Source: Methanolobus sediminis (GTDB lineage Archaea > Halobacteriota > Methanosarcinia > Methanosarcinales > Methanosarcinaceae). From it: DNA of 64,000 nucleotides. Both the position numbers and the translations under genes were made by a program. Within the stretch, counting starts at the first letter, position 1. Each line of letters starts with the position of its first letter. The notes under the pieces were generated by a model that was not told the DNA's origin, ran no database searches, and worked only from the letters and a program-made list of their open reading frames with translations. The stretch spans positions 2,356,001 through 2,420,000 of the forward strand of contig NZ_CP133592.1 in the NCBI RefSeq assembly GCF_031312595.1, given 5' to 3'. Positions 1,495-37,791 of this stretch are shown here, in pieces.

Positions 1495-3429
1495 ATGAAT
1501 CTCGGGCTTGGCATAGACACTGGCGGCACATATACGGATGCCGTAATAATGGATCTTGAAGATGGATCGATAATAGATTCAAACAAATCGCTTACTACTT
1601 ACCCTGATCTGATCAAGGGCATAGTAAATTCAATTGATGGTCTCAAAGCCGAATATCTTCCTAATGTAAGATTTACTTCAGTATCCACCACACTTGCCAC
1701 CAACACCACACTGGAGGGCAAAGGGTATCCGGCTGGTCTCATACTTATTGGCTATAATATATCCAGGAAGATTCCAACAGACCATATTCTTTCCATAGAA
1801 GGCAGGCATGATGCCGATGGAAATGAAGTGGAACCTCTTGGAGACCTAAAAGATGTAAAGGAATTTGTAACAAAGAACCAGCATAAGGTCTCTTCATTTG
1901 CTATATCATCGTATTTTGGAGTACGCAACCCTGAACATGAACTCACTATAAAGGAGATCATTCAGGATATGACAGACCTTCCGGTAGTCTGCGGACATGA
2001 ACTTTCCATGGACCTTGGAGCCTATGAAAGGGCTTTGACAGCACTCCTCAATGCCCAGTTGATCCCTGTAATTGATGAGTTTATCAAGTCTGTACGGTCT
2101 GTAATGCAGGAGAAGAACATCAATTCGGTCCTGATGATGATGAGATGTGACGGATCGCTGGTCAGGATAGAAGAGGCACTGAAAAAACCAGTTGAATCCA
2201 TTTTTTCCGGACCTGCCGCAAGCCTGCTGGGAGCTGCACATCTGACAGGACTCAAGGATTGCCTGACCATTGATGTGGGAGGCACGAGTACGGATATTTC
2301 AATGATCCAGAATGGTATGCCTGCTATCAGCAGTTCCGGTGCTGTTGTCGGCGACTGGGATACAATGGTCAAGGCTATCAAGATGAATACCTCTGCCATT
2401 GGTGGTGACAGTCATGTATGGATGAAGGAAAGAACGTATATCGGACCTAACAGGGTCATACCTCTATGTCTTTGCGCTGCCGAATTCCCGTCCATAATAA
2501 GCAAACTGCAGAAAGCTGAAAGAACCTCCAGGCGCATAATGAACGACATCATCCAGCCAACAACATTCTTCATGTCCAATGGAGCAAAGTCCCATTCTCT
2601 TCACGCATCCGAACTGGAGATTGAAGAGATGGAAATATTCGATTCGATTACAGAAGAACCTTCTTCGATAGCAGATATCGCTTCAAGAACAAATAAGCAT
2701 CCTCTGATGTTCGAAGGTATCCTGAGAAGGCTCATTCAGAAAAGATATGTAAGGCAGGTGGGTTTCACCCCTACAGATGTTCTGCATGTGATCGGTGACT
2801 ATACCAGATGGGATTCAACCGCATCAATGTTGGGAGCTTCGATCATTTCTGAATATGCTTCCATGGAACCCTTCAATCTCTGTGCCAGACTCAAAGAAGA
2901 CGTAGCCAGAGGCATTGTACTCAATCTCATTGCACACTGCGCAGATAAAGTGAAGAAGGCCGACCTGGAGAAAATACTTAATGGCACAGAACTGATGAAA
3001 TTCACAATAAGGACTCCGGTGGTAATGGTGGGTGCTCCTGTAGCTGCATATGTGAATGATATGAAATATTTCATTGATGCGGATATAAGAATCCCGAAGC
3101 ATCATGATGTTGGTAATGCGGTGGGAGCCCTTGTCGGCAATGTTGTCTACAAAGAAGAGGTACTGATAAGGCCCAAAGCACCTGGCAGCTCGGAGTATCT
3201 GCTGTTCTCTGAAAAAGGAAGATACATGTTCGATGATTATCAGGAGGCTCTTGATATGGCAAATTCCCTTGTCAACAACACAGTTTCAGAGTATATGGCA
3301 GGTTACGGATTAAGTATGGACAATGTCAGATTCGATCTTGAATCTAATAACATAGGCAGCATTGGAACAATACCTCTTGAGACAAAGATCGTTGGAGTTG
3401 CTGTTGGCTCTCCAAGGAGGATAATATGA
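1495..3429 (+). CDS. Hydantoinase/oxoprolinase (HyuA)-family ASKHA ATPase
   Basis: This 644-residue protein belongs to the hydantoinaseA/5-oxoprolinase group of the ASKHA ATPase fold. The N-terminus carries GIDTGGTYTDAV (phosphate 1 loop), and the middle carries SGPAAS and TIDVGGTSTDIS (phosphate 2 motif). A segment near residues 385-430 (SSIADIASRTNKHPL...RLIQKRYVRQVG) reads like a winged-helix insert between the ATPase halves. No metal-dependent hydantoinase domain follows, so a hydantoin-degrading role is not supported. I chose the ATG with AAGGTGAT eight bases upstream over earlier in-frame starts. The gene sits between two methyl-transfer genes and overlaps the chaperonin start by 4 bases, so an ATP-dependent role in corrinoid protein maintenance is plausible but inferred. 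Confidence 0.8.
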   Translation: MNLGLGIDTGGTYTDAVIMDLEDGSIIDSNKSLTTYPDLIKGIVNSIDGLKAEYLPNVRFTSVSTTLATNTTLEGKGYPAGLILIGYNISRKIPTDHILSIEGRHDADGNEVEPLGDLKDVKEFVTKNQHKVSSFAISSYFGVRNPEHELTIKEIIQDMTDLPVVCGHELSMDLGAYERALTALLNAQLIPVIDEFIKSVRSVMQEKNINSVLMMMRCDGSLVRIEEALKKPVESIFSGPAASLLGAAHLTGLKDCLTIDVGGTSTDISMIQNGMPAISSSGAVVGDWDTMVKAIKMNTSAIGGDSHVWMKERTYIGPNRVIPLCLCAAEFPSIISKLQKAERTSRRIMNDIIQPTTFFMSNGAKSHSLHASELEIEEMEIFDSITEEPSSIADIASRTNKHPLMFEGILRRLIQKRYVRQVGFTPTDVLHVIGDYTRWDSTASMLGASIISEYASMEPFNLCARLKEDVARGIVLNLIAHCADKVKKADLEKILNGTELMKFTIRTPVVMVGAPVAAYVNDMKYFIDADIRIPKHHDVGNAVGALVGNVVYKEEVLIRPKAPGSSEYLLFSEKGRYMFDDYQEALDMANSLVNNTVSEYMAGYGLSMDNVRFDLESNNIGSIGTIPLETKIVGVAVGSPRRII

Positions 3430-5033
3430 GCACTTCACTGGAGCATGTACAAAATATGCATGCATTGGACAATATGGATGCATTGCGTCAGAGTGTACGT
3501 AATCGTATCGGGATAAAGGATGATGTTGAAGAGGATAGTCTGATATACCAGATGCTACAGGCTTCCAGGGACATCAAGGACCTCCTTGTATCATCATTTG
3601 GACCCCGTGGACAGAGTAAGATAATAATCAGTCCAACAGACGATGTTTATCTGACAAGTGACGGGAAGACGATAATTGAACAGATAGATGTATTGCATCC
3701 GGTGGTCACTTCCCTTAAAGAGCTTGCAGTATCAATGGACAGGGTATGCGGTGATGGTACAAAGACCGCGGTCATCCTTGCTGCATCCCTTATCGAGAAT
3801 GCTGCTAAACTTATGGATATCGGCCTGCATCCGACAACCATTATAAAAGGATACCAGCTTGCCCTGAACAAAACCTATGATATCCTGAATTATGAGAGTA
3901 TTCGTATCAGCTCTGAAAGGGACCTGCATTCTGTCATAGAGAATGCCAGCCTGGGTAAGGGAATTGAAGTGCATCAGGCCCGGATAATAGCTGACATCGT
4001 TCTTAAGACACTTTCTAAGATACGGGATATCCATGGTGATTCTCACATAGATCTCAATGACTATGTAAAAGTTATAAAAAAGGTAGGGTCACCCTCTATA
4101 GAATCTATTTCAGGCATGGTACTGGATGAAAGACCCGCAAGATCCGATATGCCTTTTCATCTGGAAAATGCAAGCGTCCTTATGATCAATGGCAATGTGA
4201 GATTTGAGAGCAAGATCATAAATTCCCAGCGCAATCTGAGAATAGATGACCTGGCCGATCCAAAGCTTATACTTCATGGAAAGGAAAGAAATCTGAGATT
4301 CATGTCACAGAAGATAATCGATTCAGGGGCTAATCTGGTATTTTGTGAAGGAGATGTGGATGAATCTGTTGAAGGCTCGCTTGCAAAACATGGTATTCTA
4401 CTTTTCCAGAAACTAAAGATAAGGGACATGGAGATGGTCTCAAAGGCAACAGGTGCAAGCATTCTTTCCATCAGGGATGATATAATGCCTGATCATCTGG
4501 GTTTTGCTGATGAGGCGAAGGTAGAGAAAAGGAACGATGAACATTTCCTTTTCCTTTCTGTCAGTGATCAGCTGATATCCACGATCATGATATGGGAGCC
4601 TTTCATGTATGGTCTTGAAAAGATCGAGGAAGCAGTAGATGACGCAGTCAACAATGCTGCCTTCATACTGAAAAATCCTCTTGCCGTCAGAGGAGGAGGA
4701 GATGTTGAATTTGTCCTCTCACAGATGCTCAGGCAGTATTCTTCCACCATTGAAGGGAAAGAACAACTCGCTGTTATCGAATATGCAAACGCCCTTGAAG
4801 AAATTCCCAGAACACTCGCACGAAACGTGGGTCTCAATGAAGTCGATGCGATGACAAAAATGCTCAATTCCTATAAGAAAGGGGTTGATAGCAGGATCGG
4901 CCTTAGCCGGGATATAATTGCCAATAATCCTCCTGTGTATGATTCTTTCAGCATTAAACAAATGGCTGTTATCGCGGCCACCGAAGCTGTAAGCAATATG
5001 TTGAGAATTGATAGGATCGTATTGAAAAAGTAA
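3426..5033 (+). CDS. Divergent group II chaperonin (thermosome/TCP-1 family) paralogue
   Basis: This 535-residue protein is a full-length group II chaperonin subunit. The equatorial domain shows FGPRGQSK, LTSDGKTI and GDGTKTAV. The C-terminal half shows a VDDAVNNA segment in the place of the usual catalytic Asp, then RGGGDVE, ALEEIPRTLARNVGL and a final RIDRIVLKK. All three Asp positions expected for ATP hydrolysis appear kept, so it is probably active. It departs from housekeeping thermosomes in having GDGTKT for GDGTTT, a diverged apical region and no Gly/Met-rich C-terminal tail. It has its own AAGGAGG site and a 4-base ATGA overlap with the gene before it. Noncanonical Hsp60 paralogues are known in Methanosarcina; I infer a dedicated folding role for the methyltransferases or corrinoid proteins around it. 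Confidence 0.9.
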   Translation: MSTSLEHVQNMHALDNMDALRQSVRNRIGIKDDVEEDSLIYQMLQASRDIKDLLVSSFGPRGQSKIIISPTDDVYLTSDGKTIIEQIDVLHPVVTSLKELAVSMDRVCGDGTKTAVILAASLIENAAKLMDIGLHPTTIIKGYQLALNKTYDILNYESIRISSERDLHSVIENASLGKGIEVHQARIIADIVLKTLSKIRDIHGDSHIDLNDYVKVIKKVGSPSIESISGMVLDERPARSDMPFHLENASVLMINGNVRFESKIINSQRNLRIDDLADPKLILHGKERNLRFMSQKIIDSGANLVFCEGDVDESVEGSLAKHGILLFQKLKIRDMEMVSKATGASILSIRDDIMPDHLGFADEAKVEKRNDEHFLFLSVSDQLISTIMIWEPFMYGLEKIEEAVDDAVNNAAFILKNPLAVRGGGDVEFVLSQMLRQYSSTIEGKEQLAVIEYANALEEIPRTLARNVGLNEVDAMTKMLNSYKKGVDSRIGLSRDIIANNPPVYDSFSIKQMAVIAATEAVSNMLRIDRIVLKK

Positions 5034-5045
5034 TGAGGAGATAAA

Positions 5046-6158
5046 ATGCCTGATGAAATGACCTCGAAGGAACGTTTTATCAACGCCCTTGAATTAAAAG
5101 AAGTGGACAGGGTACCACTGGGTTATTTGTGGTTCGGGGCAGGTAATGCGGTACTTGACCGGATGAATGCAAGCATGGAGGATGTTTACTATTCCTCAAA
5201 AGGGATTGCCAGAGCACAAATATTGGCAAGGGAAATGTATCACCATGACAATGTAATGTCCCCATGGGGATGCTTGCTTGTGGAAGCAGAAGCTCTTGGA
5301 GCTAAAGTAAACATTAAGCGCAATTCTTATCCTTCGATAGCAGAATATCCTTTAAAATCTGCAAAAGAATATGAGAATATAGATCCGGTTTCTATAGAGC
5401 GCTCAGAAAGGGTAAAGACCATTACAGAGTCCATATCCATCCTCAAAAAAGAGCTTGGAGATGAGGTTTTTATAAACGGTGCTCTCCTCACACCCCTCAT
5501 GCTTGCTTCCCAGTTAATGGACGGGAGCAGGATGTACATTGAAATGATGAAGGATCCGGATAATTTCCATGCACTGCTTGATGTTCTCACTGATATTTGC
5601 ATCACCTTTTCAGACATTATGCTTGATGCAGGAGCTGATGGTGCATTTATTGAGAATGGTGGCAGCACTTCGGACCTTTTCAGCCTGGAAATGGCAAAGG
5701 AATTTGGTTTTGATTATTCCAGGAGATTATATTCACACATACAGGATAGCGGCGGTTATGTGATATCACATAACTGTGCAAATCATGCATTCTATGAACT
5801 TGAAAAAGCTCTTGAACCCAATGCTTTGAATTTCTTCTTTGGGAATGTGGAAGCGCTCGATAAGAAGTATGGAGTCGATTGCCTGAAACTCCACAATCAT
5901 AAACACATTGGTTGCAGTGAAAGATATTGTTTCATGGATTTCAAGGATTTCACAGATTCAGGAATATGCCTGATGGGAAATATCAATCCCTATGCATTCA
6001 GTTCAGGAAAGATTGGCTATATCGCAGTTGAAGTAAAGAATTGTATGGATGCAGCCCCCGATAAGGGGTTCATACTATCCACTGGATGTGAGATACCACT
6101 GAATACACCTTCGGAAGAGATGGAACTTCTTTGGAAATCAGTGATTGCATCCACATAA
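5046..6158 (+). CDS. UroD-fold methyltransferase (MtaA/CmuA type)
   Basis: This is a 370-residue UroD-family protein with the normal N-terminus (TSKERFINALELKEVDRVPLG) and the zinc-binding signature SHNC ... STGCEIPLNTP. It most resembles corrinoid-linked methyltransferases rather than haem-pathway decarboxylases, since the neighbours are all methyl-transfer genes. Between the HNC motif and the GNINP loop lies a Cys/His-rich stretch (residues about 280-297, with three Cys and four His) that is not part of the usual fold signature. It has a good ribosome site (GAGGAG, 7 bases upstream) and lies 12 bases after the chaperonin gene, so it is in the same operon. Substrate unknown. Confidence 0.85.
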   Translation: MPDEMTSKERFINALELKEVDRVPLGYLWFGAGNAVLDRMNASMEDVYYSSKGIARAQILAREMYHHDNVMSPWGCLLVEAEALGAKVNIKRNSYPSIAEYPLKSAKEYENIDPVSIERSERVKTITESISILKKELGDEVFINGALLTPLMLASQLMDGSRMYIEMMKDPDNFHALLDVLTDICITFSDIMLDAGADGAFIENGGSTSDLFSLEMAKEFGFDYSRRLYSHIQDSGGYVISHNCANHAFYELEKALEPNALNFFFGNVEALDKKYGVDCLKLHNHKHIGCSERYCFMDFKDFTDSGICLMGNINPYAFSSGKIGYIAVEVKNCMDAAPDKGFILSTGCEIPLNTPSEEMELLWKSVIAST

Positions 6159-6408
6159 ATTGAAAAGTTAACAATAATCACATCAGCCTCTTTAATTAAA
6201 TCAAAGACATTAATGAAATCATGCACACAGATAATATTAATACCAACAATATATGACTCTGAGTTATGTAATATAGATTTAATGACACAATATTTACTGA
6301 TGAAGGAGGGTCGTGATCAGTTTTCAAACGCTGGTCAACGAGGCTCTATTCAAGATCATCTATTGAAACTTCATTTTGATCACAAGTCACCATTACGGAG
6401 GTAATAAT

Positions 6409-8079
6409 ATGTATGGAATAGCACTAGATGTGGGAACTAGCGGCTTTAGGGCGCAATTGATTGATCTGGAAACAAAAGAAGTTGTCAAGACCTCAATGAC
6501 AATGAAACATCCGTTGCCAGGTGGGAATGTAACCGATCATCTTGATTTTGCCATATCCATTGGAGAAGATGTGGCACATGGTATCATCATAGATGCTGTC
6601 GAGAAAATGATCGAGGGATTCGATGTAGATCCATCACAGATATCAAAGATGGCTGTCTGTGGTAATCCGATACAGCTTTCTCTTTTTCAGAATGCGGAGA
6701 TACGAGATCTGGCCTATGCAGGGAGAAATATGCAAAAAAGACTGGGTATAGAAGACGTACACCGCGATGCAAGGATATTCCCGGCCATGGAAATATTTCA
6801 TGGAAATATATACCTTGAGAACTGTGAGATCATTGTCCCGCCTGCCATTGAGCATGAGATAGGGGCTGATGCGCTTGCCATGATGGTGGAGACGGATTTT
6901 CTAGAACAGGAAGTGCCAACTCTTGTTACAGATTATGGAACGAATGCTGAGATGGCCATAAAGGTAGGTAACAGAATAATAACAGGAAGTGCTGCAGCCG
7001 GACCTGCTATAGAAGGGCAGGGTATAAGTTGTGGAATGCTTGCAGCTCCGGGAGCTATCACGGATGTTGATCTGGAAGATGGATTCTGGAGAATATCTGT
7101 ACTGAATGAGTTCATGGATGTTGTAAAAGGTCATCTCATAGACCCGGTAAGCGGAACAATACTTGTGAGGTCGGATGTAGTACCGACTGGTATTACAGGA
7201 ACAGGGCTTATTTCCATATTGTCCCTTGCGATTGAAACAGGAATCATAATCAGTCCACCTAAACTAAAGTACGGTAAGATCAAACTTGGTGAAGGTATCG
7301 AGGTATCAGAAGAAGATATCAAAGAGGCTGGCAAGGCCATAGGTGCCATAAGGGCTGCTCAACTGACCCTGATACATGAATCCGGGATCGCCTATGAAGA
7401 TCTTGAGACCATGTATATGAGCGGTGCTTCTGGAACCTATGTAGACTCTGTCAAAGCAAGAAATATAGGCTCATGCCCGGATTTTACAAAGAAAATAGTG
7501 CAATTCGGGAACACATCTCTATCCCTTGCAAGAGACATAGTTCTTGAAAAGGTGAAGCTTGATCAACTGATCGAATTGGCAGGAAACATAAAGGCTGACC
7601 ATCTTATGATGGCTACCAGTGAAACCTTCAAGAAGCTCTATGCCTGTGAACTGGGATACTGGACAGAGGGCATGTCTATGGAGATGTACAGGAAGTTTAT
7701 GAAAATGTCTAAATTGCCTGAGCTGCCTGCTCCCGTTGATGATCCTGTGCTTGAGAAAAAGGTCCTGAAAGATATCAGTGAGGACGGTACAGGCCAGGTA
7801 GAAGTGGTAGAGGACATAGGTTTTACTCTTGAAGAACTGGCAGTAGGATGTGTAATGTGCCACAGATGTGAAAAAGAATGTCCTGAGAATGCGATATCCA
7901 TACAGGAAGTAGACGGTCGCTTCCTTGCAGAGTATGATACTCTTAAGTGCCTTGGGACTGCATGCAGAAGATGTGTGAGTATGTGTCCGGTACATGCCCT
8001 TGACTACAAGGAAATAAAGCTCATAGCTGATAGACCACTTTCGGTTCTTGCAGCACAGGCTGCAGGAGGATATCAATGA
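6409..8079 (+). CDS. RamA-like corrinoid protein reductive activase (ASKHA plus 2[4Fe-4S])
   Basis: This 556-residue protein resembles RamA, which uses ATP to reduce inactive Co(II) corrinoid proteins to Co(I). The N-terminal part is an ASKHA domain (GIALDVGTSGFRAQL at the start, VTDYGTNAEMAI in the middle, MSGASGTYVD later). The C-terminus carries two cluster motifs, CVMCHRCEKECP and CLGTACRRCVSMCP. The start is fixed by a perfect GGAGGT six bases before ATG. A 250-base gap separates it from the preceding gene, so it may have its own promoter. Its last bases overlap the next gene (ATGA). It should reactivate the corrinoid domain predicted upstream of position 1. Confidence 0.92.
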   Translation: MYGIALDVGTSGFRAQLIDLETKEVVKTSMTMKHPLPGGNVTDHLDFAISIGEDVAHGIIIDAVEKMIEGFDVDPSQISKMAVCGNPIQLSLFQNAEIRDLAYAGRNMQKRLGIEDVHRDARIFPAMEIFHGNIYLENCEIIVPPAIEHEIGADALAMMVETDFLEQEVPTLVTDYGTNAEMAIKVGNRIITGSAAAGPAIEGQGISCGMLAAPGAITDVDLEDGFWRISVLNEFMDVVKGHLIDPVSGTILVRSDVVPTGITGTGLISILSLAIETGIIISPPKLKYGKIKLGEGIEVSEEDIKEAGKAIGAIRAAQLTLIHESGIAYEDLETMYMSGASGTYVDSVKARNIGSCPDFTKKIVQFGNTSLSLARDIVLEKVKLDQLIELAGNIKADHLMMATSETFKKLYACELGYWTEGMSMEMYRKFMKMSKLPELPAPVDDPVLEKKVLKDISEDGTGQVEVVEDIGFTLEELAVGCVMCHRCEKECPENAISIQEVDGRFLAEYDTLKCLGTACRRCVSMCPVHALDYKEIKLIADRPLSVLAAQAAGGYQ

Positions 8080-8390
8080 CAGAGGTAAAGGTCAATTCCA
8101 GGATATGTGGTTTCACCCATATAATCAGGGGAAAAAAGGATGGTCAAAAGATAATTGTCGATATTGATACTCCATGTGAGAAAATCAAAAAGATGTCTCA
8201 TCTGGAAGTCGACATGATGGATCTTTTCGATATAAAAGATAATATTGTTATGGAAAAGGCCAAAGAGGCAAGATGTACTGCTACATGCCTTGTACCCTGT
8301 GCAGTGATGCATGTCTGTTGTATAGAATCGGGTTTCATGTCGGGTACACTTGCCAAAGATGCAGGAAGTATCAGCATCGAATTCCTATGA
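8076..8390 (+). CDS. Small Cys-rich conserved protein (DUF6951-like)
   Basis: This is a 104-residue soluble protein with no transmembrane segment. It has an early Cys (RICGFTH), a Cys in DTPCEKIK, and a later group CTATCLVPCAV..HVCC, giving seven Cys overall. I recognise it as a small family found in methanogens and acetogens (DUF6951, from memory), with no known reaction. It overlaps the RamA-like gene by 4 bases, so the two are probably made together. The Cys clusters suggest a metal or Fe-S site and a role beside the activase, but this is inference from position. Confidence 0.7.
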   Translation: MTEVKVNSRICGFTHIIRGKKDGQKIIVDIDTPCEKIKKMSHLEVDMMDLFDIKDNIVMEKAKEARCTATCLVPCAVMHVCCIESGFMSGTLAKDAGSISIEFL

Positions 8391-8423
8391 CATATTTCTT
8401 TGTTAAGATGAAGAATATTATTT

Positions 8424-8439
8424 AGGATATAGCTATCCT
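8424..8439. promoter_or_regulatory. Palindrome just upstream of the CoM methyltransferase gene
   Basis: AGGATA and TATCCT form a perfect 6-bp inverted repeat with a 4-base centre, ending four bases before the ATG of the next gene. There is no ribosome site between it and the ATG. An AT-rich TATA-like stretch lies about 20 bases upstream, so the gene may be read from a leaderless transcript with this repeat at its start. Operator or RNA hairpin function is a guess. Confidence 0.3.
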
Positions 8440-8443
8440 GAAC

Positions 8444-9490
8444 ATGCTAGGTTTAAAAGGAAGGTATTATATTAGTGAAACTGAATCAGATATTTTAAAG
8501 AAATTCCAGGATATACTTGATAGAAAAAAGGTTGACTTTCCGCTTGCAGGTACAGTCACCACATCAGCAATACTTGATTTGATGGATATTTCAGGGGTTA
8601 GCAGGCCTGAAGCAGACAGGAATGCGGAAAAAATGGCAAAACTTGCTTCTTCGTTACACACGGTTGCAAAGTTTGAGGTCATACGCATTCCATTTGATGT
8701 GACGGTTGTCGGCGAGGCACTCGGATGTCAAATTGATATCGGCACAAAAGCAAGGACACCATCAATAATAACTCATCCTTTTGAGAAAGAACCTGAAGAT
8801 TTCGATGTACCAGTTGATTTGCTGAAAAGAGGAAGAATACCTGTTGTAATGGAAGCAATATCCCTTCTCAAAAATGATAAGGGATTACAGGTACCTATTG
8901 TTGCAGGTATTGAAGGGGCTGCTGACCTTTCTTCTCATCTTTGTGGTATAAAACCATTTTTAAAATTGACTATTAAGAAACCTGAAATTGCAAAGAGCAT
9001 CGTCGAAAAATGTATCGATGCATGTATAATCTGTGCCAATGCCTATTTTCTTTCAGGTGCGGATGCATTGGTGGTTGCAGATGCATTATCCTCTCCAGAG
9101 ATGATGGGTCCTGATGCGTTCAGGAGAATTGTAAAACCTGCGCTGACCAGATTCAATGAAAGCATAAAAGGTCATAGTATACTTCACATATGTGGAGAGG
9201 TGGATAGTATAATTCCAGATATTCTTGAATGTGGCTTTAGTGCTATAAGTGTCGAAGAGAATGTAAAGGATCTGGAATATGTGATAGATAGTGCACACAG
9301 TAAGAATACGGCGGTGATCGGAAATATTTCAACTGCAGATACTCTGTACAGAAAAACACCGGCTGATGTCAAAAAAGAGGCTTTCAGATGCCTGGATGCA
9401 GATATCGATATACTTGCTCCCGGATGTGGCCTGGTTCCAGAGACACCTTTGGAAAATCTTCTTGCTATTGTTGATGCAAGGAATATCTAG
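8444..9490 (+). CDS. Methylcobamide:CoM methyltransferase, MtaA/MtbA family
   Basis: This 348-residue UroD-fold enzyme matches MtaA/MtbA/MtsA, the MT2 step that moves a methyl group from methyl-Co(III) corrinoid to coenzyme M. The zinc ligands HxC and a distant Cys are present as HICGEVD and APGCGLVPETP, about 75 residues apart. MtaA-like landmarks include GTVTTSAILDLMDISGV near the N-terminus and VVADALSSPEMMGPDAF. Length is normal for the family. It ends the methyl-transfer island. It is separated by about 50 bases from the Cys-rich gene and may have its own promoter. Which corrinoid protein it serves cannot be told from the sequence. Confidence 0.9.
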   Translation: MLGLKGRYYISETESDILKKFQDILDRKKVDFPLAGTVTTSAILDLMDISGVSRPEADRNAEKMAKLASSLHTVAKFEVIRIPFDVTVVGEALGCQIDIGTKARTPSIITHPFEKEPEDFDVPVDLLKRGRIPVVMEAISLLKNDKGLQVPIVAGIEGAADLSSHLCGIKPFLKLTIKKPEIAKSIVEKCIDACIICANAYFLSGADALVVADALSSPEMMGPDAFRRIVKPALTRFNESIKGHSILHICGEVDSIIPDILECGFSAISVEENVKDLEYVIDSAHSKNTAVIGNISTADTLYRKTPADVKKEAFRCLDADIDILAPGCGLVPETPLENLLAIVDARNI

Positions 9491-9752
9491 TGTAACAAAA
9501 TTGGACAAAAAACAGGAAAAAGTTAGTCGGTCAATTCAACAATCTCAAAAAATAAAATATTCCATCACAGAGACCAACGAGAACTAAAAGATACACGTCA
9601 AAAAACTCAAAGTTTCACCAAAATCTCATCGGGTTCTTTCACTGCTTAAGCTACTGTATAGATAAAAAGAAGGATCGTTGGTTTAACAGGGCATTTAAGA
9701 CCAAACCATGTTAAGCCATTTGATGCTAAGGTTCAATTCGTTATCATTGTCA
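9491..9752. other. Intergenic region without a supported gene
   Basis: This AT-rich stretch separates the methyl-transfer island from a gene on the opposite strand. The reading frames are short and broken, and I see no tRNA, strong hairpin or clear promoter. A few short stretches read like decayed coding sequence, but not well enough to name. Confidence 0.4.
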
Positions 9753-34687: not shown

Positions 34688-35080
34688 AAGGATTCACCTT
34701 TTACTACATTTTACTATGATTGTTCCCCACTCTCTCTTTTTGTTTGCAGTTACAAGATGGTCTGAGTCTCATCATTGGAATACATCTCAAGTTTTTCATC
34801 GATATTCTGTCCTATTATAAATACATTATAAAGACGGCTTTACGCATGATTTATGCATCTTCAAAGCCTTTGAAACCCTCTGTTCAGCTGTTTTTCAAAT
34901 CCGTTTTTGTATCATTTTCCATCCTATAGAATTGTTAATATTTTTTCATTTCTACAGATATTATTTCTTTAAAAATATGATATCAAGAAACGTTGCATAT
35001 CGAAAAACTTAAGTAATTTATGGTTTATCCGTAGACGTCTATAGAATATATAGATTAGTAGTAGTGATCGGAGACGTAAC
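34688..35080. other. Intergenic region before the lipoprotein gene
   Basis: No supported gene. A 10-base palindrome TAGACGTCTA lies at 35032-35041, just upstream of a TATA-like GAATATATAG, about 40 bases before the lipoprotein start. This arrangement fits an operator next to a promoter. Confidence 0.4.
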
Positions 35081-35371
35081 ATGAAGAAATTTTTAAGCAT
35101 ACTTATGGTTTTCCTGATGATCGGACTTGTAGCCGTATCAGGATGTGCAGACACAACAGAAGATACAGCAACAGATTCAGAGGACGTTGCAGAGAATGTC
35201 ACTGAAGATGCAGAACATGCAGCAGAGAACGTTACTGAAGATGTCGCAGATGTCGCAGAGAATGTCACTGAAGATGTAGAAATGGCGGCAGAGAACGTCA
35301 CTGAAGATGTAGAAATGGTGGCAGAGAACGTTACTGAAGAAACAGCTGCAAACGACACCGCAACTGAATAA
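35081..35371 (+). CDS. Small acidic lipoprotein with repeated N-V-T sequons
   Basis: This 96-residue protein starts with a lipoprotein signal (FLSILMVFLMIGLVAVSGC), so it is lipid-anchored outside the membrane. The mature part is highly acidic and consists of five imperfect copies of AENVTED, each holding an N-glycosylation sequon N-V-T, plus a final N-D-T. No enzyme domain is present. GGAG lies eight bases upstream of ATG. Methanosarcinales glycosylate surface proteins, so this may be a heavily glycosylated cell-surface spacer; that is inference. Confidence 0.75.
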   Translation: MKKFLSILMVFLMIGLVAVSGCADTTEDTATDSEDVAENVTEDAEHAAENVTEDVADVAENVTEDVEMAAENVTEDVEMVAENVTEETAANDTATE

Positions 35372-37182: not shown

Positions 37183-37791
37183 ATGACATCTCACCCTTTC
37201 ATAGGTGATAGGATGTTATCAAAAGGGGAATTACCTGGCGATGGGACGTTATCACAAGAGAATTTACTACGTGATGGGGTCTTATTAAAAGAGGAATTAC
37301 TCAGCAAAGGTTATGAAAAAGCGACTTTTGCAGCAGGTTGTTTCTGGGGTGTTGAGGCAGTATTCAGAAAAGTGCAAGGCGTTGATTTTACACAGGTAGG
37401 TTATACAGGTGGAAACAAGGAAAATCCTACCTATAAGGAAGTCTGCATGGGCAATACAGGGCATGCAGAGGCTGTGGAGCTACTCTTTGATCCTTCAATA
37501 GTTTCATATGATAAATTACTGGAGCTTTTCTGGGAACTGCACGACCCTACAAGTCTTAATAAACAGGGCCCGGATGTAGGGACTCAGTATCGTTCTGCTA
37601 TATTCTATCATAATGAAGAGCAGAAGAACAAAGCTATGTCTTCTAAAAAAGAACTCGAACTATCACATCGTTTTAAAAAGCCCATAGTAACACAGATAAT
37701 GCCTGCAGGTCCGTTCTACAGGGCAGAGGAATATCATCAGCAGTATTTTGAAAAGACCGGTACTGAAGGTGGCTGCATACTTAAATATTGA
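37183..37791 (+). CDS. msrA: Peptide-methionine (S)-S-oxide reductase
   Basis: This 202-residue protein repairs oxidised methionine. The catalytic GCFWG motif is in [20 protein letters not shown], with [15 protein letters not shown] and [13 protein letters not shown] following, as in all MsrA. The first 45 residues are extra and form three imperfect copies of an 11-12 residue unit (GDxxLSKxEL...). The real start may be within this repeat (Met at residue 11). Methanogens are oxygen-sensitive, so this is a stress gene. Confidence 0.93.

Follow-up and report, generated by a model that had tools for sequence, protein, structure and literature searches.

A small acidic lipoprotein carrying an array of candidate N-glycosylation sites in Methanolobus sediminis and its relatives

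The window analyzed here, a 64,000-nucleotide stretch of the 2.8-Mb genome of Methanolobus sediminis, encodes a small acidic lipoprotein with an array of N-X-S/T sequons. Comparison with its relatives indicates that these sequons are very probably under selection across a genus-wide family whose members differ in their repeat units. Our best reading, which we hold with about even confidence, is that the protein is a polyanionic bristle, N-glycosylated and fixed to the membrane surface by a lipid anchor. The constraint on the sequons can be read from the sequences themselves; occupancy of the sites and the bristle role are candidates.

The gene (window positions 35081-35371, plus strand) was confirmed by its open reading frame, translation, and orthologues. 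It encodes 96 amino acids and is preceded by a Shine-Dalgarno-like GGAG (35070-35073, plus strand) that is conserved upstream in close relatives. A minus-strand ORF at 34969-35358 is a shadow of the repeat. The upstream neighbor encodes a pyruvoyl-dependent arginine decarboxylase (PF01862), and the downstream neighbor, on the opposite strand, a GNAT acetyltransferase. The protein starts with a Sec-type signal peptide, MKKFLSILMVFLMIGLVAVSG (M1-G21; 35081-35143), which is near-identical across 13 aligned Methanolobus members, followed by Cys22 (35144-35146), the predicted lipid-attachment residue. S20, G21, and C22 are invariant in the 13 aligned rows; one further member outside this alignment (L031) has SEC at the lipobox. 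The motif, VSGC, is of the archaeal [LVI][AS]GC type with a conserved Cys. The first-pass annotation had called the product a lipoprotein, and judging from this lipobox it very probably is one, placed on the outer face of the membrane. The mature chain of 75 residues contains 27 Asp/Glu and no Lys/Arg, aromatic residue, Leu, or Gln, and has a predicted unmodified mass of 7.9 kDa and a pI of ~4.05.

The sequons follow an exact 11-residue spacing (Asn39, Asn50, Asn61, Asn72, and Asn83), set by five units of the AENVTEDVEMV-like type. The first four carry AENVTED (35189-35209, 35222-35242, 35255-35275, and 35288-35308, all plus strand), and the fifth carries AENVTEE (35321-35341, plus strand). 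The earlier description of five AENVTED units is right for N-V-T, which all five hold; the full heptapeptide is shared by four. It also omitted a sixth sequon, NDT at Asn91 (35351-35359, plus strand), which is kept in all four closest sequences. Its wording that nearly the whole mature chain could be glycosylated is fair as to extent because the units cover residues 37-87 of 96. At the DNA level, Tandem Repeats Finder reports a 33-bp unit in 4.6 copies (83% matches, score 202). All six Asn of the mature chain lie in sequons vs 1.0 expected on shuffling (P 0.0005), and its sequon density is the highest among 1434 ORFs (60 aa or longer) from a 464-kb sample of the genome, made up of the window and a further 400 kb. 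Three ORFs of that sample, all large (1170 to 1445 aa), contain a 75-residue segment of equal or greater density.

Two observations from the same genome concern other genes. At L059, a pair of adjacent, large, secreted-looking minus-strand ORFs (1657-5994 and 6072-9584) reach up to 9 and 8 sequons per 75 residues, the densest segments of the sample, and may be surface glycoproteins. At window positions 37183-37791, the N-terminal extension of a peptide methionine sulfoxide reductase (PF01625, beginning at residue 46) consists of about three 11-residue (33-bp) repeats, at 37205-37301.

A genus-wide profile search found a full-length member of the family in 21 of 27 Methanolobus genomes. The remaining genomes include one with a 41-residue stub (L026), two with only the solute-binding protein that adjoins the gene in some relatives (G003 and G011), and three with nothing. 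Close orthologues occur in the two named relatives, Methanolobus vulcani and Methanolobus bombayensis, at 81-83% identity. Among the matches listed, similar proteins with another signal peptide also occur in two further genera of the organism's family (L028 in genus g11 and L037 in genus g2). Our counts rest on 30 loci that were read (L009-L038), of which 23 were kept as family members, two of them from other genera. The stub was dropped, as were L032, L033, L034, L035, L036, and L038, which are other lipoproteins or weak matches; two of these, L035 and L036, are small acidic proteins, each with two sequons. A second g11 member with two sequons (L047) and one interrupted by N (L048) stand outside the counts. 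Low-scoring contig matches from a Sphingomonas MAG and an Oscillibacter MAG were taken as composition matches. The genus also has short variants that consist of only a signal peptide, Cys, and a short acidic tail: the stub, which is alone in its genome, and two others (G021 C21:9172-9294 and G026 C1:275072-275167) whose genomes have a full-length gene elsewhere.

The 23 members keep the lipobox signal and the composition and do not keep the repeats. Lys/Arg are absent from 22 of the 23 and Phe/Trp/Tyr from all; the repeat unit may be AENVTED, AEDV, ENATEE, DENMTEE, or ANETVAD, or there may be none. Between species, the mature chain ranges from 64 to 130 residues among the 21 Methanolobus members, 16 of which have at least three sequons, two have one (L015 and L017), and three have none (L018, L024, and L030). 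On a poorly supported PdaD tree, the sequon-poor members are scattered among sequon-rich species. Our literature search, which covered papers available without subscription, found no description of the family. It is without a name and undescribed in the literature searched; the feature is real and very probably selected.

Several comparisons bear on selection for the sequons. Of the 100 Asn in the 23 members, 83 form part of an N-X-S/T sequon (77 with Thr, 6 with Ser) and 17 do not; shuffling within each chain, repeated 2000 times, gave a mean of 16.3 and a maximum of 31. The enrichment is specific to Asn and to the +2 position: Ser or Thr stands at +2 of Asn with a frequency of 0.83, of Asp and Glu 0.14 each, of Ala 0.08, and of Val 0.05 (0.00-0.15 for every non-Asn residue counted at least 20 times), and at other offsets from Asn with a frequency of 0.06-0.12. 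Because the enrichment is absent from the other common residues and offsets, the sequons are very probably selected. The pattern holds when each 7-residue context is counted once (Asn 48/65, Asp 24/159, Glu 59/355) and when AENVTED-bearing and non-Methanolobus members are left out (52/67 Asn in sequons). The triplets are diverse: NVT, NET, NAT, NTT, NDT, NMT, NES, NIT, and NST. In the own-genome background, the share of Asn in sequons is 24/165 for 11 other lipoproteins found by a lipobox-based search and 306/2753 for 211 soluble proteins; the gene caller used for the soluble set preferred the longer opposite-strand shadow ORF over the focal gene. A comparison of the four closest genes gives 21 synonymous and 8 non-synonymous changes for Asn and Thr codons within sequons and 24 and 77 for the other mature codons (Fisher 3.2e-6). 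This contrast supports constraint on the sequons without proving it, because gene pairs are treated as independent and Thr has more synonymous codons than Asp/Glu. The P values are too optimistic, since neither repeat copies nor related species are independent of one another.

Glycosylation cannot be the sole role of the family, as three members have no sequon and keep the acidic, low-Lys/Arg composition. Sequon density falls as the Asp/Glu fraction rises (Spearman -0.68 across 23 members; -0.47 after removal of the sequon residues; -0.41, P 0.06, when only the 21 Methanolobus members are taken). That sequon-poor members are richer in Asp/Glu is a weak hint that glycans and carboxylates may substitute for each other between members.

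The machinery for N-glycosylation appears to be present. The genome encodes two STT3/AglB homologues (C1:1911845-1913104 and C1:1971500-1972756; the two matches have E values of 4e-29 and 1.6e-17), so that this exported chain with constrained N-X-S/T sites is accompanied by an oligosaccharyltransferase. According to the parts of the published reports drawn on here, lipobox proteins of Haloferax are listed among AglB-dependent N-glycoproteins (PMC8241124), Methanosarcina mazei has an AglB candidate and carries glycans on its surface proteins (PMC4350412), and AliA/AliB are archaeal lipoprotein lipidation factors (PMC12186497). In the bristle reading, the protein would be exported by Sec and lipidated on Cys22, as its lipobox predicts. 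The mature chain would then extend, or form a loose helix as in a low-confidence model, between the membrane and the S-layer, where AglB may modify the N-X-T sites, given the selection on the sequons and the two STT3 genes. The resulting coat of glycans and carboxylates could serve as a spacer and a cation-holding layer. It would probably lie around lipid-anchored uptake proteins, because the gene in relatives adjoins an amino-acid-binding lipoprotein and a promoter palindrome is common to both. The interpretation in the first-pass annotation, with a spacer or sink as its candidate role, is supported in part.

Could the 11-residue unit instead be a helix-forming hendecad? The protein would then be an acidic amphipathic helix or coil that bears no glycans and acts by its carboxylates, through interaction with cations or the membrane surface, and N-V-T would be a passenger of the unit. 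Family scans gave no firm lead: no Pfam or NCBIfam family matched the focal protein over its curated cut-off, and the Apolipoprotein (PF01442; 20.5 bits vs 90 required, E 0.00041) and Lpp/OprI alanine-zipper (NF040598; 15.1 bits vs 43 required) matches were rejected. The weak apolipoprotein match is nonetheless in the direction of a helix, as is the hydrophobic moment, which peaks at 98-100 degrees in the repeat-bearing L009, L015, and L037, a value reached by none of 500 shuffles. In L013 and L028, the moment is also above all shuffles, but it is greatest at 86 and 80 degrees, which does not match a helix. AlphaFold2 models a helix at 34-94, but with low confidence (mean pLDDT 52.6, pTM 0.19). 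Sequon-free members exist, as this explanation allows. However, L020 and L023 have no significant periodicity (54 and 495 of 500 shuffles reach their values) and still have 5/5 and 6/7 of their Asn in sequons; periodicity and sequons are thus separable. The sequons, moreover, occur as many different triplets. Altogether, we consider an unglycosylated helix unlikely.

The other main alternative arises from the gene's neighborhood. Directly downstream in 6 of the 21 Methanolobus members is a gene for an amino-acid-type solute-binding lipoprotein (SBP; PF00497, SBP_bac_3; E 2.3e-45 for the L012 neighbor), and in genus g11 the SBP is beside the small lipoprotein locus in 4/4 genomes, and the two have almost identical signal peptides; in one of these genomes (G061), the small gene can be read for no more than 52 residues, counted from where the match begins. 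Upstream of the focal gene is a 17-bp palindrome, TCTATA-GAATA-TATAGA (35038-35054), a putative operator that overlaps or adjoins the TATA box; its distance to the ATG is 43 bp here and 40 bp in most relatives. TCTATA-N5-TATAGA occurs at 30 sites in 14 of 27 Methanolobus genomes, including two in the own genome. Seven sites are 40-43 bp before a small lipoprotein, six are 40-41 bp before the SBP (counted from an internal ATG in L030), five (L103-L107, in five Methanolobus genomes) are 53-54 bp before an LMW-phosphatase/ArsC-like gene (PF01451), and 12 are elsewhere. Most other PdaD-linked members have a near version, and the promoter block is conserved. The palindrome is not over-represented genome-wide in the 27 genomes, where a reversed control pattern has more than 30 sites. 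Its fixed position before three gene types suggests that it is a shared operator.

Three further observations concern the palindrome. Its place before the LMW-phosphatase/ArsC-like gene hints at a small regulon. The exact palindrome of the window is also found 88 bp before another lipoprotein (L095, G002 C1:1312651), the start of which presumably resembles a fasciclin-type protein. One site inside an ORF (G000 C1:344905) was set aside.

This arrangement could mean that the small protein is a dedicated accessory of the SBP, under a common regulator, that tethers it, spaces it, or guides substrate by charge. The pairing in all four g11 genomes and the same palindrome 40 bp before both genes are in its favor. 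Yet M. sediminis keeps the lipoprotein and its palindrome and lacks this SBP (the sole PF00497 match in the genome is a 608-residue ORF), so the partnership is not obligatory; no such SBP was found in the fetched flanks of 15 of the 21 members, and the palindrome precedes the phosphatase gene as well. A role as dedicated SBP accessory is therefore improbable. The small lipoprotein and the adjacent SBP have near-identical signal peptides within a genus and different ones between genera (L012/L024 and L046/L052), which suggests that they evolved in concert or were duplicated more than once. The small protein could then be a mere copy of the SBP's signal peptide and acidic linker, with a tail that drifts through slippage of the repeats and serves no specific function. 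Such an origin would fit this sharing, the freely differing units and varying length, and the five Methanolobus genomes without the gene and one with a stub, but it is very unlikely given the tightly kept composition, the conserved promoter block, and the sequons kept through synonymous change.

We return, then, to the N-glycosylated bristle. In a more specific form, the protein would be a dedicated N-glycan carrier, in which a lipid anchor and an N-X-T array in a polyanion are conserved across the genus Methanolobus and also occur in two related genera, the promoter palindrome is shared with amino-acid uptake, and species trade glycan sites for carboxylates; we put this forward only tentatively, as possible but doubtful. 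If the sites are occupied, the protein would offer a minimal natural substrate for archaeal N-glycosylation, with six like sites in 75 residues on a lipid anchor, and a methanogen would be shown to build a glycosylated bristle layer beneath its S-layer. Such a protein may be easily overlooked in standard tryptic proteomics because the mature chain has no Lys/Arg and hence no internal cleavage.

Among known systems, the Lpp/OprI lipoproteins (NF040598) are likewise small and mostly repeated helix, but the match is far below cut-off and the focal mature chain lacks Lys/Arg. To our knowledge, no peptidoglycan partner is to be expected in a Methanolobus. The lipobox N-glycoproteins of Haloferax volcanii are also archaeal and AglB-dependent; they differ in having few sites per protein, with no comparable whole-chain sequon array in the parts of the report drawn on here (PMC8241124). 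A further parallel in kind is bacterial. Neisseria Lip (Ngo0983) and Laz (Ngo0994) are lipoproteins with AAEAP pentapeptide repeats that are reported as glycoproteins, at least in the sections of the source used here (PMC9239064). The focal protein was rejected as a Lip/H.8 type, as it has no AAEAP pentapeptides and its unit is 11 residues; the proteins are not homologous, and the sequences showed no homology, as was to be expected. Neisseria has an outer membrane and uses O-linked glycans on Ser in AAEAP, whereas the focal protein is archaeal and its candidate sites are the Asn of N-X-T. As described in those sections, they share with our protein a low-complexity, Ala/Glu-rich repeat domain adjoining the lipid anchor, and in both cases a repeat lipoprotein and a folded lipoprotein have a common N-terminal signal. 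The kind of protein, a low-complexity and probably glycosylated lipoprotein, is thus already known from Lip and Laz, as far as that source describes them (PMC9239064).
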